From Candidatus Darwinimomas equi (lineage in GTDB: Bacteria; Bacillota; Clostridia; Lachnospirales; Lachnospiraceae), in assembly GCA_018066045.1 (NCBI GenBank), contig JAGHSD010000072.1, positions 1-32,458 on the forward strand: a stretch of 32,458 bases of DNA, written 5' to 3'. Below, one piece after another: positions 1 through 9,337 of the stretch. The notes beneath the pieces are model-generated. The model worked only from the letters and a program-made list of their open reading frames with translations, made no database searches and was not told the origin of the DNA. A program made the translations under genes and the position numbers. Each line of letters starts with the position of its first letter. Within the stretch, counting starts at the first letter, position 1.

Positions 1-1173
1 CATATCGCTGGAATGCTTTTTTTCATCAATGCATTCGAGTAGCCCGGCTTTATGTTCAAAGCTATTGATGGTATTCTGGAGCTGACTATCTAGTACAATT
101 CTGTTTGTTACAACTATTACAGAGTTAAACACGCTCTCATCTCTGTCGTTATGAAGAGATGCTAGACGATATGCAATCCATGCTATAGAATTAGATTTAC
201 CCGATCCTGCAGAATGCTCAATGAGATAATTAATTCCCGCTCCCTTTTTCTTTACATCATCTATTATCTTATTTACTACGTCGAACTGGTGATATCTTGG
301 AAAAATCAGTTTGGGCGTTTTAATAGTTTTTGTAACACCATTTTCAATAATTTCTTCTTTTTCAATCACAAAAGAAATGAATCGTTTAATTAGATTCATC
401 AAAGAATCCTTTTGCAGAACCTTCTCCCAAAGGTAAGATGTTGCATAACCATCCTCATTAACCGGATTCCCTGCTCCACCATTGACTCCCGCTCCATTTG
501 ATCCCATATTAAACGGGACGAATGAAGTATTAGCATCTTTTAACTGCGTTGTCATCAACACTTCATTTAAATCCACAGCAAAGTACACAAGAAATCGATG
601 ATTTAATCTGAATGCAAATTCTTTTGAGCTACGATCTTCTTTATACTGCCTTTTTGCATCACATACATCCTGTCCTTTAAGTTGATTTTTCAATTCAAGT
701 GCAACAACCGGAATTCCATTCACAGACAAAACCATATCTATCGTATCTGTGTTATTCCTTGAATATCTGAACTGCCTGGTACATCCAAGAATATTCTGTT
801 CATATAGTGCATTTGTAGTGTCATTTAATCCGGATTCCGGTTTGAAATAGCACACATTAATATGGATTCCAATATCATCAATACCATCTCTTAATACATG
901 TATCAATCCCTGTTCAGCAATACAATGCTCAAGCCTTGTATAAAGCTTTTCCTTGGCATTATCCTTATAGAATTTTACATAACGTTCCCATGCTTTAGGC
1001 TGTGTTTTTTCTATAAACTCGCAAAGGACATCCATATACATGCATTTATCCAAGTCATGCGTTCTATTATGAACCCAAGTGCCATCCTTGGTCTGTCCGT
1101 TAAACTGCTGATATCCATTTGATAACAGATGCTGTTCAATATCGTATTCAAATCTTTTTTCGGAAGTATCCAT
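1..1173 (-). CDS. hsdR: Type I restriction enzyme, motor/nuclease subunit HsdR (C-terminus off window)
   Basis: HsdR is the ATP-dependent translocase and endonuclease subunit of a type I restriction complex (R2M2S). The frame is open to base 1, so only the first 391 residues are present, which is why the ORF track misses it. The N-terminal nuclease domain is visible as IDMVLSVNGIPVVALELKN, the D...ExK core of the PD-(D/E)xK fold. It is followed by PRYHQFDVV and a Walker A motif, HSAGSGKSNSIAW, that opens the first RecA-like motor domain. The ATG at 1173 is preceded by GGAG six bases upstream. It is the last gene of the operon visible here, 27 bases after the HEPN-like gene. The helicase motifs and C-terminal domain cannot be judged. 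Confidence 0.95.
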   Translation of the reverse strand, partial: MDTSEKRFEYDIEQHLLSNGYQQFNGQTKDGTWVHNRTHDLDKCMYMDVLCEFIEKTQPKAWERYVKFYKDNAKEKLYTRLEHCIAEQGLIHVLRDGIDDIGIHINVCYFKPESGLNDTTNALYEQNILGCTRQFRYSRNNTDTIDMVLSVNGIPVVALELKNQLKGQDVCDAKRQYKEDRSSKEFAFRLNHRFLVYFAVDLNEVLMTTQLKDANTSFVPFNMGSNGAGVNGGAGNPVNEDGYATSYLWEKVLQKDSLMNLIKRFISFVIEKEEIIENGVTKTIKTPKLIFPRYHQFDVVNKIIDDVKKKGAGINYLIEHSAGSGKSNSIAWIAYRLASLHNDRDESVFNSVIVVTNRIVLDSQLQNTINSFEHKAGLLECIDEKKHSSDM

Positions 1174-1200
1174 TTTCTTCTCCAATTTATATAATCGATT

Positions 1201-1764
1201 CTATGGAAGCTTAACTATCTTTGGATCTATTTTAAAGTTTATTCTTGTTCTTTCATCCATAGAACTCAGATGATAATCAAGGAAATCAAACTTCTGTTGA
1301 TATTTATTATAATATGATAATGCCGCCGTGCATATTTTATCGCATAAATTCAAAATATTTACGCTATATCTTCTATGTATCGGTTCTTCTTTTCCATCTA
1401 TAACAACTATCTCGGCCGAGTACGACTCACTTGTATATGAAGCCCTTTTATTTCCCTGCCAGATTAGTTCGAAGTATTCATAGTTTAGTTTATTCACGTC
1501 AATATTTGGATTCCCCTGATGAAGAAGTGAACATCTTAAGGAATATACTAGTTCACCATTGGAATGTGATAAATGATTTAATCCGTTATTGTCATCATTA
1601 TTGACATAATCATCATACCAATCCACATATCGCTTCCTTGGTTTCTCTTCCGCGTATTCTGCCTTACCGCAGATATCCGGAAGTGTTAATGCAACTATCA
1701 GGGCAGCCATATATGAATCATTATCAAGGCACTGATATACTTCCTTTACTAATTCCTTAATCAT
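1201..1764 (-). CDS. HEPN-like putative RNase between hsdS and hsdR
   Basis: A 187-residue protein of no named family that I can assign. What is visible is an Rx4H motif, R77-C-S-L-L-H82, inside the helical stretch VYSLRCSLLHQGNPNID. This is the signature of HEPN-fold ribonucleases, whose common form is RNxxxH. The N-terminal half is mostly helical (ALIVALTLPDICGKAEY) and a charged D/N-rich loop precedes the motif; the C-terminal part is predicted-looking alpha/beta. There is no signal peptide or membrane segment. Its ATG overlaps the hsdS stop (ATGA), so translation is probably coupled to hsdS, and no good independent ribosome binding site is seen. By position it resembles prrC, the anticodon nuclease gene set among hsd genes. 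The RNase role is inference; a structural HEPN partner protein is the alternative. Confidence 0.72.
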   Translation of the reverse strand: MIKELVKEVYQCLDNDSYMAALIVALTLPDICGKAEYAEEKPRKRYVDWYDDYVNNDDNNGLNHLSHSNGELVYSLRCSLLHQGNPNIDVNKLNYEYFELIWQGNKRASYTSESYSAEIVVIDGKEEPIHRRYSVNILNLCDKICTAALSYYNKYQQKFDFLDYHLSSMDERTRINFKIDPKIVKLP

Positions 1765-3095
1765 GCTGGAACTTCTTTCTTTCCGGTGACATATTCGTAA
1801 ATGAGTGACTTCTTGTATAGGTTAAGTTTTTCAATTTTCTGCTGTTTGATAGAAATCAATCGATCAATCTGCGAACACTTTTTATCAAGCAGTTCAACCA
1901 TTTTTGATGCATTGTCAGGCACTAATACAGAGGTTTCACTTAAAAGCTTCCTCGAAATGCTAAACACCTTGATTCCAGACACTCTTTTGCGAAGCTGACT
2001 GCGCCATGCGTCAGTAAGGAATAAGTAAGCCAAATATTTGTTGTCCACATTTGGTTTTTTCGAAACAAGAATCACTGTATGGTACCCAGCAAAAATCGTA
2101 TCATCAATATCGACATATGCAGCATTACCACATCCTTCTCGATCTTCTGAGGTGTCTGCAATAATGAAATCCCCTTTTTTTACAAGACATGATGGATTCG
2201 TTTCAAGGTATTCTTTACCAACAAATCTTTTCAGTTCTTCATGAATTGTCACACCGCTATTCCATTTTGCATGAATTTGTCCATAACTTATGACAGGTAT
2301 TCCTTCTTCGACAAGGTTTTCTTTTGTGATCGGAAGACCCTTTCCAAAATCAAATAGAGTTTTTAGTGGAACGGCACTCCATATTTCTGGAATCTTTTCA
2401 ATCCACTCAATTCCACTTTCCTTCATAGGCACATTTGGATCGAGACCTTTTGTGACAACTTCGGTGATAAGACTTTGCTTATATGCTTTCAGTTTTTCAA
2501 TCTGGGCTTCTTGATTTGCTATCAAAACATCGACCTTTTGAGCGTTAGCATCAAGAAACTCTACGATTCTATTCTGTTCATCCCGCGAGCAAATAGGGAA
2601 CTCCTGCATGCCTAATTTTTTTGATGGAATTCTCATTCTAATGGTATTTAGTCCTCCACTTTCGGTTTCCTTAATTAGGATTCCGTTGCCGAGTCCGCGT
2701 AAGCTTCTTTGGAATTCAAATGACTGAAAAATGTAATGGAAGAACTTAATATTCCCATCAAAACGTGGGTAATAAACATAATACACTGGACTAACAACAC
2801 CTGTATATTTTGACAAGCCTACCGATCCCGATAGTATATTCATGCTATTAACAACTACATCATTCTCTCGAACAATTTTGTAGTCTGAAAGATCTTCTCT
2901 TGGTTTATTACCAGAATGATTTTCTCCATCATATATTGTTACACCATCCTTAGCGGATAAAGAAAGAATTGTATTAACTTCTAAGCCTTTATTCTTTTCA
3001 TTTCTTTCTATCATTAATTGTTTTATTGTTTTTAATCCCCAAGACTCCGGAATTTCTCCAATCCAATCAACGGATGTTTTCTTCATCTTACGCAT
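1761..3095 (-). CDS. hsdS: Type I restriction specificity subunit HsdS, two target recognition domains
   Basis: HsdS recognises the bipartite DNA target and holds the M and R subunits together. The 444-residue protein shows the classic two-fold repeat. Each half starts with the WIxxIPExW motif (VDWIGEIPESW, then IEWIEKIPEIW) and continues with a target recognition domain. Each then ends in a conserved helical spacer (NRIVEFLDANAQKVDVLI...LITEVVTKGLDP and LLDKKCSQIDRLI...SLIYEYVTG). The ORF track start at 3101 is a TTG. I prefer the ATG at 3095, which has AAGGAG ten bases upstream; an ATG at 3086 is also possible. It overlaps the end of hsdM by 8 bases and the next gene by 4, so the genes are translationally coupled. 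The target sequence cannot be predicted by eye. Confidence 0.94.
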   Translation of the reverse strand: MRKMKKTSVDWIGEIPESWGLKTIKQLMIERNEKNKGLEVNTILSLSAKDGVTIYDGENHSGNKPREDLSDYKIVRENDVVVNSMNILSGSVGLSKYTGVVSPVYYVYYPRFDGNIKFFHYIFQSFEFQRSLRGLGNGILIKETESGGLNTIRMRIPSKKLGMQEFPICSRDEQNRIVEFLDANAQKVDVLIANQEAQIEKLKAYKQSLITEVVTKGLDPNVPMKESGIEWIEKIPEIWSAVPLKTLFDFGKGLPITKENLVEEGIPVISYGQIHAKWNSGVTIHEELKRFVGKEYLETNPSCLVKKGDFIIADTSEDREGCGNAAYVDIDDTIFAGYHTVILVSKKPNVDNKYLAYLFLTDAWRSQLRKRVSGIKVFSISRKLLSETSVLVPDNASKMVELLDKKCSQIDRLISIKQQKIEKLNLYKKSLIYEYVTGKKEVPA

Positions 3096-4866
3096 TTCCA
3101 AATAGCTCCTTCATTAAGGCCGTTTCCTCTGCTTCAAGTTCTTTAATCTCATTAAATATATCATTAGATGGAATTGGCGGTACAAATTTGTAAAACAGTC
3201 TTGTAAAAGGTACTTCATAACCCACTTTGTCTTTACTTCTGTCCATAAAAGCAACCGGATTATAAAGAAGAACATTTTTGTTGAAATATTCATCAACATT
3301 ATCCTGTAAAGGAATCAACTCACAGTCACTTGCTCCTTTAGTTGGCTGCATCTGTCCCTTCTTTAGAATTGGCTTTCCGTTTTCATCACAAACAGCAGTT
3401 TCAACAGTTACCTTTGTATATCCAAAAAAAACCCTATCGAAAATCTTTGATTCAACCACTAGCCCATTTTCCTCATAAATTGCTTCCTCGAAGTTCTCAT
3501 ATGCCTTCATGATGAGAGCAATGCAGTTGTCATCAAGATCAACCCGTTTATTGCCGATGTTCTTGCGACGCTTTACAAAGCACTTTGATGCATCAATCAG
3601 TTGAACCTTGTTGATACGTTTTCCCGACTTTCCCTTGGAAAGAATCCAGATATATGTAGAAATACCGGTATTGTAGAACAAATCTGTTGGTAGCTGAATA
3701 ATAGCCTCAACAAGATCACCAGCAATAACATGTCTTCGGATTTCAGAAGCTCCACTTCCGGCATCTCCTGTAAATAAGGATGATCCATTTTGGATGATTG
3801 CCATTCTTCCAGAACCATCCTTCAGCTTCTTTACTCCATTAAGCATAAACAATAGCTGACCATCAGAAATAGCCGGTAATCCCGGTCCGAATCGGCCATC
3901 ATTCCCCAGTTTTGCTTCCGCCTCGACCTCAGTCCTTTCCCTCTTCCAGTCGATTCCGAACGGAGGATTACTGATAATATAATCAAACTGGTATCCACTA
4001 AATTTGTCATCCGAAAGAGTATCTCCATACATCATTCCTGAAGCATTTCCGCCTTTAATGAGCATATCTGACTTAGCTATTGCAAATGTTTCCGGATTGA
4101 ATTCCTGTCCAAAACAGGTTAAAACAGCATCATCACTGATATCCTTCAGGCGCTCTGTCAGGCAGCCAAGCATCTGAGATGTACCCATTGCCATATCATA
4201 CGCAGTTTTAGTACACCCATTTCCCTTGATTTCTTCCCTTTCCGGAGCTATAAGCAGCTCAGCCATTAGGTATATGATGTCACGGCTCGTAAAATGCGCT
4301 CCTGCCTGCTCATCATATGACTCTGAGAATTTTCTTATCAGTTCTTCAAAAATATATCCCATATCAGCAGAAGTAATCTTATCAGGAGACATATCAGCCT
4401 TTTTCGAAATAAACTCCTGTATCATAACAAAAAGGACATTTCCATCAGCCATGGTTTTTACAGTATCTGCAAATTTGAAGTTTGAAATAATATCTTTAAC
4501 GTTATCCGAATAGCCCTGCAGATAATCTTCAAAGTTTTCTTCGATATTATCCGGCTCTGAAACAAGTTTTTCAAAATCAAATTTGCTTGTATTATAAAAA
4601 GCATATCCGGATGTCTTTGTAAGAGTGCCTTCGATAAGTTTTTCATTTGCTCCGGCTTTATCAAGCTTTTCTTTCATCTCAAGCACAGCCTTCTTAGTAG
4701 GCTTCAATGCATCATCAAATCTCTTAAGGACTGTTAAAGGAAGAATGACTTTTCCATACTCATGTGGTTTGAATAATCCCACCAAGTGAGTAGCACTTTC
4801 CCAGATAAGATTTGCCTTTTCCTGAATATTTGTATTTGTCTGTTTCTGCAATTCCGAGAAACCCAT
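3088..4866 (-). CDS. hsdM: Type I DNA adenine methyltransferase HsdM with variant SAM motif
   Basis: The modification subunit transfers a methyl group from SAM to adenine N6 in the HsdS target. The N-terminal helical HsdM_N domain is visible (NLIWESATHLVGLF...VILPLTVLKRFDDAL), then HFTSRDIIYLMAELL, and the catalytic motif IV SNPPFGIDW near residue 300. Motif I, normally like DPACGTGG, reads YDMAMGTSQM here, losing the Pro and one Gly. I believe this variant is shared by a subfamily of HsdM proteins, so it need not mean inactivity. The ORF track start at 4890 is a TTG. The ATG at 4866 (MGFSELQ) is preferred because GGAGG lies ten bases upstream, giving 592 residues. It begins 28 bases after the HsdM-like gene and overlaps hsdS by 8 bases. 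Confidence 0.94.
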   Translation of the reverse strand: MGFSELQKQTNTNIQEKANLIWESATHLVGLFKPHEYGKVILPLTVLKRFDDALKPTKKAVLEMKEKLDKAGANEKLIEGTLTKTSGYAFYNTSKFDFEKLVSEPDNIEENFEDYLQGYSDNVKDIISNFKFADTVKTMADGNVLFVMIQEFISKKADMSPDKITSADMGYIFEELIRKFSESYDEQAGAHFTSRDIIYLMAELLIAPEREEIKGNGCTKTAYDMAMGTSQMLGCLTERLKDISDDAVLTCFGQEFNPETFAIAKSDMLIKGGNASGMMYGDTLSDDKFSGYQFDYIISNPPFGIDWKRERTEVEAEAKLGNDGRFGPGLPAISDGQLLFMLNGVKKLKDGSGRMAIIQNGSSLFTGDAGSGASEIRRHVIAGDLVEAIIQLPTDLFYNTGISTYIWILSKGKSGKRINKVQLIDASKCFVKRRKNIGNKRVDLDDNCIALIMKAYENFEEAIYEENGLVVESKIFDRVFFGYTKVTVETAVCDENGKPILKKGQMQPTKGASDCELIPLQDNVDEYFNKNVLLYNPVAFMDRSKDKVGYEVPFTRLFYKFVPPIPSNDIFNEIKELEAEETALMKELFGNA

Positions 4867-4894
4867 ATTGTTATGTCCTCCAACTATCAACTTA

Positions 4895-6244
4895 TTATTT
4901 CTTTAAGAGCGCATACAGCTTGTCCAACTCACTGTCAATTTCATAAACTGTCATCGTTTCCTCTTCTGTTGGATTCGCCAGGTAATTAGCCGGTATAAGA
5001 TTATATTCCTTTTCTTTAAGATTTTGTTTTGTAACTACAGCTGAAAATCCTTCCTCTGCCGTCTGATTATCTATTGTATTCACTATCTTTTCTATTATCG
5101 CATCCGGCAGGTTCATTTCACGTATGCTGTATTTTGCGTCAAGTTCCTTAATCTTATCTATAGCATTTATCAGTACTACTTTATCTGATTTCATCCTGGA
5201 GAGTATGATGATGTTCGTTCCTATTGATGTACCTTTCCACAAAGGCGGCAAGGCAACAACAGCCTTAAGCATTCCTGATTCTACCAATTCTTCACGCAAA
5301 TTGTATGCCTGCTTTTTAACCTGGAAAAGGAAATTGCTCGGTGTTGCGATTACTGCCGTTCCATTTTCGTCCAGATATGATTGTATGGTATTTGATATTG
5401 CAGCATATGTACTATCGGAAGCCGTTTTTCCGTCAGGCCTGACTATCCTAATATTAAGCGGTGGATCAACAAATACTTTATTACCATGAACATCTGGCAA
5501 TACATACGTAAGACTGTCACCGGCATGAATTTTGATGTTGTCATACCCATACATAATCAGCAGCATTGCAGACAAAGCAGCATTGCTGCATGATATTTCT
5601 GCAATATTAACACTCGGAAGCATGTCCTTTGTAATTTCCATTGTTGAAAGGCCTACTCCGGATGCAAAATCACAGAAAGTATCATCCTGCCTGATTTTCA
5701 GGATCTCTTTTGCGATTCGTCCCAGGCTGGATGTCGTTGCACAATCTCCTGCAAATTCGCTTTTCTTCGATGTTGTTTCAACGATCTCAATCAACCCATC
5801 AACCAGGCTTTTTCCCAGTGCATGGTTTCCTTCTTTCTCTTCAAGGTCCATGCTTCCAAGTACATCTATTATCTTCTTGAACTCTTCAGAGGTAACATTC
5901 TTTTTCTGATTTGAATATCCCCCGCCGAATAATTCTTTCTGATAGTATTCGATATTCTCCGGGCTCGAAAAGATCCGATATAGGCCATACGCTTTATCGA
6001 TATATTCAAAGACCGGTATCAATGCATCAATTCCACCCTCTACATCCTTCATAGCGAGCATTTTCTGTGCTCTGGCACAATTCTGCATATCTTCTACCGT
6101 CTTAGCTCCTACGTAATTATCCAACGCATATTTTAGGAAAATTAAGCGTATAGTGCTGAAAGATAAATCCTTCGAATAGAGTGCATTCTTAAGCGTATTC
6201 ATTAAATCCCATAATATTGTGCTTTTGTCTTTGCTATTATCCAT
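4895..6244 (-). CDS. Divergent HsdM-like N6 adenine methyltransferase-fold protein
   Basis: A 449-residue protein with the architecture of a short HsdM. An N-terminal helical part (LWDLMNTLKN...IRLIFLKYALDN) resembles HsdM_N, and LGRIAKEILKI leads into a Rossmann methyltransferase core. Motif I reads CDFASGVGLSTME (residues 191-203), keeping GxG. The catalytic motif IV position reads VFVDPPLNI (D260-P-P-L263), where N6-adenine enzymes have N/D-P-P-Y/F/W; the aromatic residue that stacks on the flipped adenine is a Leu. Later strands (GTAVIATPSNFLF, MLKAVVALPPLW) fit the HsdM core. The ATG at 6244 has AAGGA upstream and overlaps the half-HsdS gene by 8 bases. It may be a non-catalytic partner of HsdM or act on another substrate. 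I know no established gene name. Confidence 0.82.
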   Translation of the reverse strand: MDNSKDKSTILWDLMNTLKNALYSKDLSFSTIRLIFLKYALDNYVGAKTVEDMQNCARAQKMLAMKDVEGGIDALIPVFEYIDKAYGLYRIFSSPENIEYYQKELFGGGYSNQKKNVTSEEFKKIIDVLGSMDLEEKEGNHALGKSLVDGLIEIVETTSKKSEFAGDCATTSSLGRIAKEILKIRQDDTFCDFASGVGLSTMEITKDMLPSVNIAEISCSNAALSAMLLIMYGYDNIKIHAGDSLTYVLPDVHGNKVFVDPPLNIRIVRPDGKTASDSTYAAISNTIQSYLDENGTAVIATPSNFLFQVKKQAYNLREELVESGMLKAVVALPPLWKGTSIGTNIIILSRMKSDKVVLINAIDKIKELDAKYSIREMNLPDAIIEKIVNTIDNQTAEEGFSAVVTKQNLKEKEYNLIPANYLANPTEEETMTVYEIDSELDKLYALLKK

Positions 6245-6833
6245 TCGACTTCACCATTTCCTTGAAAATAACATCATTTCTTTTTGATTCCAGCTCTACA
6301 ATTTTCTGAACAATTTTAAGCTTTTCCTGTGTTGCGAGATAGTGAGCTCCTATCTCCTTCTGTTCATTCGATGATGGCACCGGGATATGCACCCCTTTTA
6401 TCTTGCCTACCGATAATACCGTCATCACAGAACCTGCCACCTGCATCTTCAGCTGATCCTTGCAATAGCTGCTATTTAGAAAAGCCAATAGGTATGAAGG
6501 TTCCAATGTTCCCGTACTCTTTATTATGGCGCAGAATGACGGAACAACCGCCCCTGCAGATTCCTGAGTAACCAATGCAGCATCATACGGAGTTGACAGT
6601 TTTATTACTATGTCCCCGGCTTCAGTCATCTTTTTCTTGTCTACCAAAGTTTTCAGTCCTTCTTCCGGCATTTCAGAGACATTTATTGTCCCATCTCCGT
6701 TAATGCACTTAGGAATTAAAACCTTCCTTTTTTCTATTGTTTCCTCTCCTGCAGCCTGAGCCGTTACTCGTCCCATGATCTGTCCGCCGGCAATTTCGAT
6801 TCCGCATTCTTCTAATCTCATAATGTTTGTCAT
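6237..6833 (-). CDS. Half-size HsdS-like protein, single target recognition domain
   Basis: A 198-residue protein with one HsdS-type target recognition domain and one C-terminal helical segment. Typical HsdS signals are AGDIVIKLSTPYDAALV, SYLLAFLNSSYCKDQLKMQVAGSVMTVLSVGKIKGVHIPVPS, and the helix starting NEQKEIGAHYLATQEKL. Complete HsdS proteins are about 400-450 residues with two such units, so this is a half subunit. Natural and engineered half-S proteins are known to dimerise into a functional symmetric S. The ATG at 6833 overlaps the preceding stop (ATGA) and has GGAGAGG about eleven bases upstream. No frameshift is seen at either end, so it looks like a genuine short gene and not a broken one. 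It sits directly before the HsdM-like gene, suggesting that the two work as a pair. Confidence 0.82.
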   Translation of the reverse strand: MTNIMRLEECGIEIAGGQIMGRVTAQAAGEETIEKRKVLIPKCINGDGTINVSEMPEEGLKTLVDKKKMTEAGDIVIKLSTPYDAALVTQESAGAVVPSFCAIIKSTGTLEPSYLLAFLNSSYCKDQLKMQVAGSVMTVLSVGKIKGVHIPVPSSNEQKEIGAHYLATQEKLKIVQKIVELESKRNDVIFKEMVKSNG

Positions 6834-7237
6834 ACTGCTAACGCCTCTCCGTACATATAATTGATAAAATACTTCTTGGGATTTCTGATTTTTTCTTTGT
6901 GATAGTACTTAAGTTTGTTGTCCTTCCATTCTCTGTCGAGATCCGCATCGGTCCATTCTTCACTTCGTTCTATATCACATAATCGTCTCTGGTCCTGAAT
7001 GTTCCGACATGAAAAGAATGGATCTTCTCTGTTATTTATCCTGAGCTCATCATAGCGTTCTTCACTGATCTCCAGAACATATCTGATTGCATCGTCATGA
7101 TGATGCTTAACCCTTGGCATTCTTCTTGCCTTTGCAGCTGCTTCCTTTCCGGATGATGCTGCTATTGCGAATATTTTATCAATATAATGATTTCTTCCTA
7201 CATGCCCACATTTAACACAAACTTCATACAGCTTCAT
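6830..7237 (-). CDS. Small conserved CxxC protein, first gene of the restriction operon
   Basis: A protein of 135 residues and unknown function. It opens with a beta-like segment holding a single CxxC pair (VCVKCGHVGRNHYI), goes on to a helix rich in Ala/Lys/Arg (GKEAAAKARRMPRVKHHHDD), then NIQDQRR and a charged C-terminal tail. The CxxCGH arrangement may bind metal, but only one pair of Cys is clear, with one further Cys at SCRN and one at LCDI. No membrane segment or signal peptide is seen. The ORF track starts at 7270; I choose the ATG at 7237 because AAAGGAG lies eight bases upstream. Its stop overlaps the half-HsdS start (ATGA), so it is part of the defence operon and the first gene after the promoter. 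A nucleic-acid-binding or regulatory role is only a guess. Confidence 0.75.
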   Translation of the reverse strand: MKLYEVCVKCGHVGRNHYIDKIFAIAASSGKEAAAKARRMPRVKHHHDDAIRYVLEISEERYDELRINNREDPFFSCRNIQDQRRLCDIERSEEWTDADLDREWKDNKLKYYHKEKIRNPKKYFINYMYGEALAV

Positions 7238-7292
7238 TTTATATCTCCTTTGGTTAACGGTCAAGTACATTTGATTTATTGTTAAAATATTA

Positions 7293-7391
7293 TGATATGT
7301 TTTTTATGTTCTTGCTTCGATGAGTAAATAATAGCACATCGGTATTGTACTGTCAATACATTTCTTTGTTTTTTTGATATGTTTTTTATGT
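7293..7391. repeat. Two identical 17-bp direct repeats bracketing the operon promoter
   Basis: TGATATGTTTTTTATGT occurs at 7293-7309 and again, without mismatch, at 7375-7391, a shift of 82 bp. Each copy itself contains TATGT twice at 9-bp spacing. One copy lies upstream of the -35 box and the other just downstream of the expected transcription start of the restriction operon. This arrangement fits operator sites for a repressor that loops or coats the promoter; the binding protein is unknown. Confidence 0.8.
7328..7356 (-). promoter_or_regulatory. Sigma-A type promoter of the restriction operon
   Basis: On the minus strand a perfect -35 box TTGACA (7356-7351) is followed by a 17-base spacer and the -10 box TATTAT (7333-7328). 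The expected start near 7321 leaves an 80-90 base leader before the first gene at 7237. The 17-bp repeats lie on both sides of this promoter. Confidence 0.85.
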
Positions 7392-7853: not shown

Positions 7854-8759
7854 TTAGCTCAGGTTAATCCATTGCTCCTCCTGAGCCTTCCAAACTAACT
7901 CATACCCTGTATCTTCCTTGATTGAAACCACTATTGGCATCAATAAGTCTTTTATCAATGAGACTACTGCGGAAAGTTCCACATTATCAATTGCTCTCTT
8001 CTTTTTTGTAAATGCATTCCATCTTTGAATATGTGTCGTATCCTCTGTAAAATCCGGATTAAATGCTACTATGTCATCAAATCCCGTCCTTCTATGTTCA
8101 AACGTTTCAATAAGGGCTGTTTTCAGCTCTTTTCCATCAAGATCAAGGTTCTTTGCTATCTGATATATGTCATAAAAGTCTTTGTATCTACTGTTTGCCA
8201 AGCCTAATGAAACGATAGCTTCAAACTTTTCCGCAATAGCCGAGTAAATCGAATATGCATTAATCCTTGGCGTTTCCATATTTAGCAGAACAGGAAAATC
8301 CATTTCGATGCAATCCGGATATATAACATCGCCAAATCCAATATCGATTGATACCGGTATTTTAGTTCTGTCGAGATGAGCCGTTATTGATACATTCACA
8401 CCATGATATTTCTTAAATTCAGTAATAGCCTTCACAACCATAGAGTTCATGTCATAAGTTAAAGCATCATCAGCATATATTGAAAACACTTCTCTAAATA
8501 TTTCTGCTATTTCTTCCGGATTGTTATGTACTCTCTGCCCAAGCAGATCAATATCTACCGTCGCTCTCGGGAACTCTCTTCCAAATAATGCATAAAGAAA
8601 GATTCCGCCTTTAAGAACGAAATGCTCTGAATACTTAGAAATAGACAACCTGTATATTGATCTTTCCATTGCATAGGATACAAGATTATCCTGCAAAGTC
8701 TTTCCTTCCTGCTTTGCAAGATTATTTAGTCTGGTCTTAACAGATGTGGCATTTGTCAT
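7854..8759 (-). CDS. abiEii: AbiEii/AbiGii-type nucleotidyltransferase toxin
   Basis: Toxin of an AbiE-type (type IV) toxin-antitoxin and phage-exclusion system. The family has a DNA polymerase-beta-like nucleotidyltransferase fold; some members modify the tRNA acceptor end. Visible motifs are LKGGIFLY (the GG-containing motif), RATVDIDLLG (the metal-binding DxD), VSIDIGFGD, and the family segment IAEKFEAIVSLGLANSRYKDFYDIY. At 301 residues the length is typical. The ATG at 8759 overlaps the antitoxin stop (ATGA), as is usual for abiE pairs. The conserved catalytic-type motifs appear intact, so activity is plausible. The real substrate cannot be told from sequence alone. Confidence 0.92.
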   Translation of the reverse strand: MTNATSVKTRLNNLAKQEGKTLQDNLVSYAMERSIYRLSISKYSEHFVLKGGIFLYALFGREFPRATVDIDLLGQRVHNNPEEIAEIFREVFSIYADDALTYDMNSMVVKAITEFKKYHGVNVSITAHLDRTKIPVSIDIGFGDVIYPDCIEMDFPVLLNMETPRINAYSIYSAIAEKFEAIVSLGLANSRYKDFYDIYQIAKNLDLDGKELKTALIETFEHRRTGFDDIVAFNPDFTEDTTHIQRWNAFTKKKRAIDNVELSAVVSLIKDLLMPIVVSIKEDTGYELVWKAQEEQWINLS

Positions 8760-9337
8760 ACAAGCACCTCCAGATAAGTTTTAAGAATATCTCCGCATTT
8801 CAGTTCTTCAGCATATCTGATTAGTTTATTCAGATCCCTTGTGCTGCTGTCGAGGTATTTTTTCAGGATTTCCTTAGTCTCCTCAATTCCGACATCTTCT
8901 CTATAGAATATTATGTCGCAGACAGTTTTTTCTATATCATAAATCCTGAATTTGTTGCCTTCATTATCAATAACCTGTATCCCCTTTTCAAACCGATTAT
9001 CTGTATAATAATGAATCCGGATACTTGGCCATTCAGGAAGTGTTGAAACTTTTGCCTTTCTTGGGATAGCCACATCTATTGCATCCGGTCTGAATGTTGT
9101 CAGATTATAAAAAACGGCAGCACTCATAAGGCATATTACTCCGTCCGGTACATATGCATATGCGTAATAATAATCTGAATCATCTCCTGAAAACTCCAGA
9201 TTTTCATATGTCTTTTTATTTATCTTTTCAAGTATTCCGCTATTTACAAACTGATTGATCTTATACTGAGAATAGCCTGCAGATCTCAGTTCATTCAGAG
9301 AATAAAATTTCCTGTCCTTTGCTATCATTTCCGACAT
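8756..9337 (-). CDS. abiEi: AbiEi-type antitoxin with winged-helix DNA-binding domain
   Basis: Antitoxin and autorepressor of the AbiE pair. Known AbiEi proteins bind inverted repeats in their own promoter through an N-terminal winged helix, and neutralise AbiEii without forming a stable complex. Here the N-terminal FYSLNELRSAGYSQYKINQFVNSGILEKI reads as the helix-turn-helix. It is followed by the AbiEi core (DGVICLMSAAVFYNLT, DVAIPRKAKV, FRIYDIEKTVCDIIFYRE). The protein has 193 residues. The ATG at 9337 has GAGG seven bases upstream. A large perfect palindrome lies directly upstream and overlaps the promoter, which fits autoregulation. Confidence 0.9.
   Translation of the reverse strand: MSEMIAKDRKFYSLNELRSAGYSQYKINQFVNSGILEKINKKTYENLEFSGDDSDYYYAYAYVPDGVICLMSAAVFYNLTTFRPDAIDVAIPRKAKVSTLPEWPSIRIHYYTDNRFEKGIQVIDNEGNKFRIYDIEKTVCDIIFYREDVGIEETKEILKKYLDSSTRDLNKLIRYAEELKCGDILKTYLEVLV

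Follow-up and report, generated by a model that had tools for sequence, protein, structure and literature searches.

The restriction operon and gene X

The stretch of DNA that was analysed, hereafter the window (32,458 nucleotides; contig JAGHSD010000072.1 of Candidatus Darwinimomas equi), was found to contain a type I restriction-modification (R-M) operon with hsdM, hsdS and hsdR and, between hsdS and hsdR, a small additional gene, here called X. Gene X (1201–1764, minus strand), identified in the list of open reading frames (ORFs) and by its match to PHROG 18591, starts with ATG and encodes an HEPN-like protein of 187 amino acids (aa). The R-x4-H motif on which the original prediction of an RNase was built was confirmed in this ORF, with R77 encoded at 1534–1536 and H82 at 1519–1521. 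The location of the gene was confirmed as well, by matches to Methylase_S on one side and to HSDR_N and SWI2_SNF2 on the other.

The hsdS gene for the type I specificity subunit (1761–3101, minus strand; PADLOC 1e-106, Pfam Methylase_S) has an uncertain start codon, a downstream ATG being likelier, and its stop overlaps the start of X by 4 bp (ATGA). The gene for the modification subunit, hsdM, lies at 3088–4890 (minus strand; PADLOC 1.5e-215, HsdM_N and N6_Mtase). A gap of 15 bp separates X from hsdR (1–1185, minus strand; HSDR_N 3.7e-13, SWI2_SNF2), which is truncated by the contig end and contains the N-terminal 395 aa. The remainder of hsdR was found on another contig of this genome, C79, from base 3 onwards (G000:C79:3-1844), and is 53% identical to HsdR of L001, one of the loci with X relatives (given by L numbers throughout). 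Because this remainder was found at the edge of a contig, hsdR is probably complete, and the gene and the operon are probably intact and merely divided by the assembly.

The order hsdM-hsdS-X-hsdR is exactly that of the prr locus, hsdM-hsdS-prrC-hsdR (prrABCD; PMC3014915), as had been predicted when X was assigned to the position of PrrC. According to published accounts, prrC is always linked to type Ic hsd loci, and an NTPase domain mediates activation in PrrC. The further claim that X lacks this NTPase part agrees with its length of 187 aa and with the lack of any Pfam match.

X belongs to a minus-strand run of seven overlapping or near-touching genes, encoding a 146-aa protein, an HsdS-like protein, an N6-methylase, HsdM, HsdS, X and HsdR. 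The gene for the 146-aa protein (6830–7270, minus strand; no family match) heads the run and overlaps the next gene, which encodes an HsdS-like protein with a single target recognition domain (6237–6833, minus strand; Methylase_S 3.8e-5), the partner of a second N6-adenine methylase (4895–6244, minus strand; N6_Mtase 4.5e-21, mad2-like 4.8e-20). The best promoter-like site 5′ of the run was found at 7328–7356 (minus strand; TTGACA-17-TATTAT, 11/12, with TG before the -10 box); the number of promoter-like sites around the operon was not above chance. The region 4895–7270, located 5′ of hsdM and comprising the methylase, HsdS-like and 146-aa protein genes, showed weak similarity to mad2/mad5 of MADS, and L001 contains a methylase-HsdS fusion at the corresponding position. 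Just upstream of the restriction operon, at 7854–9337, genes for an AbiEii nucleotidyltransferase toxin (Pfam 9e-40) and an AbiEi-like antitoxin were found. As these genes adjoin the restriction operon, the locus represents a small defence island. This island lies beside the genes for ribosomal proteins S9 and L13.

Conserved residues and predicted fold of the X family

Searches of Pfam, NCBIfam, PADLOC and PDB sequences with X gave no family match. The sole family match was to PHROG 18591 (profile E 1e-28), the phage-protein family to which X belongs; this family is annotated as function unknown and, unlike X, has no record of presence in restriction operons. The X family appears to lack any earlier characterisation, going by the libraries and papers covered, which left out subscription papers, preprints and supplements. 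Relatives came from GTDB genomes, IMG/VR contigs and the records of phages and plasmids, and were fetched mainly via the LxLPDIC segment described below or the whole X sequence.

A lone R-x4-H in one protein was rejected as evidence because the motif is common by chance: it was present in 5 of the 30 other genes of the window, or 0.11 occurrences per 187 aa. Conservation of R77 and H82 across the family had been set beforehand as the test, and it was passed. Of 75 non-redundant relatives, 74 have the pair as R[C/N]xxxH, down to approximately 18% identity, and given the way in which the relatives were fetched this conservation is no selection artefact. In X the motif reads RCSLLH (1519–1536, minus strand) and lies at the end of predicted helix 3 (residues 70–83). 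The residue following the arginine is C in 67 of the 74 relatives and N in the other seven (7/74).

A second conserved segment, LTLPDIC from L26 to C32 (1669–1689, minus strand), was located by alignment within predicted helix 2 (residues 18–36) and includes D30 and C32. The invariant positions of a 28-row alignment were L26, L28, P29, D30, C32, W49, R77 and H82. D30 was also invariant in alignments A2 and A3 and was kept in 108 of 110 fetched rows (duplicates included), and the conservation of C32 nearly equals that of H82.

The single exception to R-x4-H among the 75 relatives is a clade from Sulfitobacter plasmids, represented by four copies (L009, L167, L168, and L169). In these copies, C32 is replaced by A together with replacement of H82 by Y, while position 77 holds R or K and position 30 holds E or D, with K and E in most of them. 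The joint decay of C32, H82, R77 and D30 suggests that these residues form a single functional site, and from their sequences the Sulfitobacter copies are possibly inactive or neofunctionalised.

AlphaFold2 models were obtained for the window protein (28 rows; predicted local distance difference test score, pLDDT, 84.7; predicted template modelling score, pTM, 0.79) and for a prophage member 18% identical to it (37 rows, A3; pLDDT 96.3, pTM 0.90). Both models showed the same topology: H1 is followed by H2, which carries LxLPDIC, then by an insert helix and by H3, at whose end R-x4-H lies, with a beta insert preceding H4. HEPN domains have been described as two alpha-hairpins with an insert between H2 and H3, R-x4-6-H closing H3 and, in many cases, an acidic residue in H2 (PMC3710099). 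The X models agree with this layout as far as the order of the predicted secondary-structure elements and the position of the motif go, having two alpha-hairpins, the H2-H3 insert and the motif ending H3; the helix-2 acid is present as D30. X further resembles the HEPN superfamily in occurring in defence and prophage contexts. The only significant matches in a Foldseek search against BFVD were A0A0H4TI24 and a protein of Arthrobacter phage Nandita, both viral, of which the Nandita protein was also found as a relative of X by sequence search.

Relatives in phages and in restriction loci

The majority of X relatives were found alone in phages, near lysis or integrase genes and with no restriction genes nearby. 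These phages and prophages are those of Bacillota, Pseudomonadota, Actinobacteria and Fusobacteria, and X relatives were also present on several dozen IMG/VR contigs. The relative adjoins holin and CHAP genes in phage SE-1, a holin gene in a Cetobacterium prophage region and the integrase gene in phage Nandita. It lies between integrase and holin genes in a plasmid-borne phage of Lentilactobacillus (L. buchneri), between integrase and endolysin genes in Acinetobacter phage TCUAN1 and downstream of the lysis genes in E. coli phage ECP1; B. subtilis SPbetaL5 carries a relative as well. Sites near holin, endolysin and integrase genes are the usual places of accessory (moron) genes. When the ECP1 gene region was compared with E. 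coli chromosomes, there was no match over most of it, and only short matches were found towards its 3′ side.

Five X members lie within type I operons (the window, L001, L002, L074, and L085), and their place in the operon varies. X lies between hsdS and hsdR in the window and in L002, with one more gene preceding hsdR in L001; it is found between hsdM and hsdS in L074 (M-X-S) and after hsdS in L085 (R-M-S-X). The L002 operon also contains a gene for a 361-aa protein with no known function between hsdM and hsdS (L002:2593-3678) and therefore carries two cargo genes. Other relatives were found near a fused HSDR_N/N6-methylase/S protein (L075), near a type II C5-methylase and a restriction enzyme gene (L135), next to an LlaJI type II system (L018), next to a type IV enzyme (L078) and near HsdR and an effector nuclease (L008). 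Systems of type I, II and IV are thus all represented among the neighbours of the restriction-linked members. Further relatives lie near AbiH, GmrSD-like and DRT3a genes (L011) and near a CAP12-TIR gene (L098). The X copy of L135 is frameshifted (L135:5458-6017). Defence systems picked out by experimental selection have been reported to show such a double distribution over prophages and defence islands (PMC9519451).

Phage and other members were interspersed among the five type I members inside one Bacillota clade of the tree, and the five formed no clade of their own. The restriction label requires five changes on the tree, and at least two of these changes were forced by well-supported branches, the bootstrap being not fully settled.

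A predicted membrane protein is encoded directly 3′ of X in three loci (L001:6571-7608, L077:7919-9232, and L075:7351-8628). In a stretch of 67 aa close to a transmembrane segment, the L001 and L077 proteins showed 34% identity, and the L075 protein looks unrelated. The membrane protein is a possible partner of some X members; as a standing partner it was rejected as a general feature, since it was found in three loci only, of which just L001 and L077 look related.

One clade consists of longer X members of about 306–327 aa (L086-L097, e.g., L088:5170-6090) from genomes of the same bacterial family as the window. These contain the HEPN-like domain with R-x4-H kept and a C-terminal domain (approximately 110 aa) that resembles a receiver or Rossmann fold. 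No hsd homologue was found within 6 kb in any of the 13 loci of this subfamily (0/13).

Proposed function and alternatives

With moderate confidence, we regard X as one of a family, as yet unnamed, of small antiviral effectors that are encoded by a single gene and have an HEPN-like helical core and a probable RNase site, are self-contained and latent, and are carried as cargo by phages and restriction loci. It is probably a stand-alone antiviral effector that cuts RNA, and not a subunit controlled by this restriction enzyme. The distribution of the family across phages and several restriction types argues against a subunit tuned to one enzyme.

The RNase site would probably be metal-independent and formed by R77 and H82, aided by D30. 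Temperate phages would carry X as cargo against competing phages, and chromosomal restriction loci would carry it too. In the window, X would be co-translated with hsdS, produced alongside the restriction enzyme and kept latent in the uninfected cell. Upon infection it would be activated by a trigger probably sensed by X itself; a candidate sensor, put forward as speculation, is the beta insert that separates helices 3 and 4 and is specific to the family; it may serve sensing or dimer control. Activated X would then cut RNA, and growth or phage production would stop, an abortive outcome that would add a second layer behind restriction. More tentatively, X may represent a single-gene HEPN-like effector family common to phages, prophages and type I, II and IV loci that has its own trigger, in which C32 is coupled to R-x4-H and which repeatedly joins restriction operons as portable cargo. 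A comparable independence is known for RloC, which functions without a linked R-M system and has its own trigger; unlike X, RloC is a large Rad50-like ATPase protein (826 aa in Acinetobacter baylyi), and no homology to X was seen.

Several results weigh against this interpretation. With both models, Foldseek found no HEPN structure in the PDB at E ≤ 0.001. The only HEPN structures among the weak matches were those of AbiV (PDB 9bj6/9bj7; E 2–8, template modelling (TM) scores 0.27–0.40), obtained with the weaker model only. The better model (pLDDT 96.3) gave no HEPN and lost the AbiV matches, which were therefore not used as proof. AbiV, an HEPN RNase of Lactococcus, is like X a small antiphage protein but typically lacks the motif histidine (PMC3710099), which X has. 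Comparison of profiles by hhalign gave no link to HepT, Abi_2 or AbiV; these accepted HEPN families likewise failed against each other, and as this positive control was negative the test was discarded. The residue after the arginine is typically N, D or H in HEPN proteins, whereas C is usual here, and X also differs from the superfamily by its beta insert between H3 and H4, the extra invariant LxLPDIC and the lack of a match to any Pfam or NCBIfam HEPN model. The long subfamily is not linked to defence genes, the member of L088 having as neighbours redox genes and the genes for a CRP/FNR-type regulator and a coiled-coil membrane protein, and no published experiment on any X-family member was found in the papers searched. 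Of the predicted HEPN assignment, the layout, the R-x4-H and the placement of the helix-2 acid stood; homology to PrrC or to any named HEPN family was unsupported. The label HEPN-like, and not proven HEPN, is used for the modelled fold since the layout fits while Foldseek gave no significant HEPN match and the profile comparison was uninformative.

The same fold results bear on a first alternative, in which D30, C32, R77, C/N78 and H82 would form an enzyme site of another kind, or one that binds a ligand or metal, on an HEPN-like or different helical scaffold, X being antiviral and not an RNase. The near-equal conservation of C32 and H82, their joint loss in Sulfitobacter, C32 being no HEPN hallmark, and the Foldseek result with the better model are in line with such a site. 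We consider it unlikely, as position 78 is N, the typical HEPN residue, in the seven members mentioned above. It is less likely still that X is a non-catalytic accessory, either one that serves restriction systems as regulator, chaperone or RNA-binding protein or a counter-defence protein of phages. X is small and co-translated with hsdS, its relatives occur in phages as well, and certain HEPN domains are non-catalytic binders (PMC3710099). Against this stand the almost invariant active-site-like residues (74/75) and the range of partners, which takes in type I, II and IV systems as well as phages that lack such a system; a system-specific subunit would not be expected to spread so widely.

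The original prediction had compared X to PrrC of EcoprrI, an RNase kept silent by the local HsdRMS complex and freed when a phage inhibitor blocks restriction. PrrC itself cleaves tRNA-Lys once an anti-restriction peptide has activated it. X shares with PrrC the place in the operon, an R-x4-6-H-type site and a likely role as second defence line, and is tightly coupled in translation to hsdS; five members lie inside type I operons, and such a backup has been proposed for HEPN genes in R-M operons in general (Anantharaman et al., 2013; PMC3710099). Yet X lacks the ABC-type NTPase part that mediates activation in PrrC and any detectable homology to it, and the exclusive type Ic linkage of prrC is not seen in the X family, most members of which belong to phages or neighbour systems of another kind. 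There is thus no support for silencing of X by this restriction complex and, with no hsd genes near most relatives, no clade of restriction-linked members and a changing place within the operon, PrrC-type silencing was rejected on distribution as a general rule for the family and is improbable for X itself.

Returning to X as a self-contained effector, HEPN RNases in restriction operons are already a known theme. At least 16 HEPN clades are known to be linked to R-M operons (Anantharaman et al., 2013; PMC3710099), and the X family adds a further case. The family itself has no Pfam, NCBIfam or PADLOC model and is filed as unknown in PHROGs, and is therefore missed by defence-system finders, although it is carried even by phages of laboratory hosts, ECP1 (E. 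coli MG1655) and SPbetaL5 (B. subtilis). X thereby offers a testable case of one effector for prophages and several restriction types, and one that separates control by the own restriction enzyme from a portable second layer of defence.
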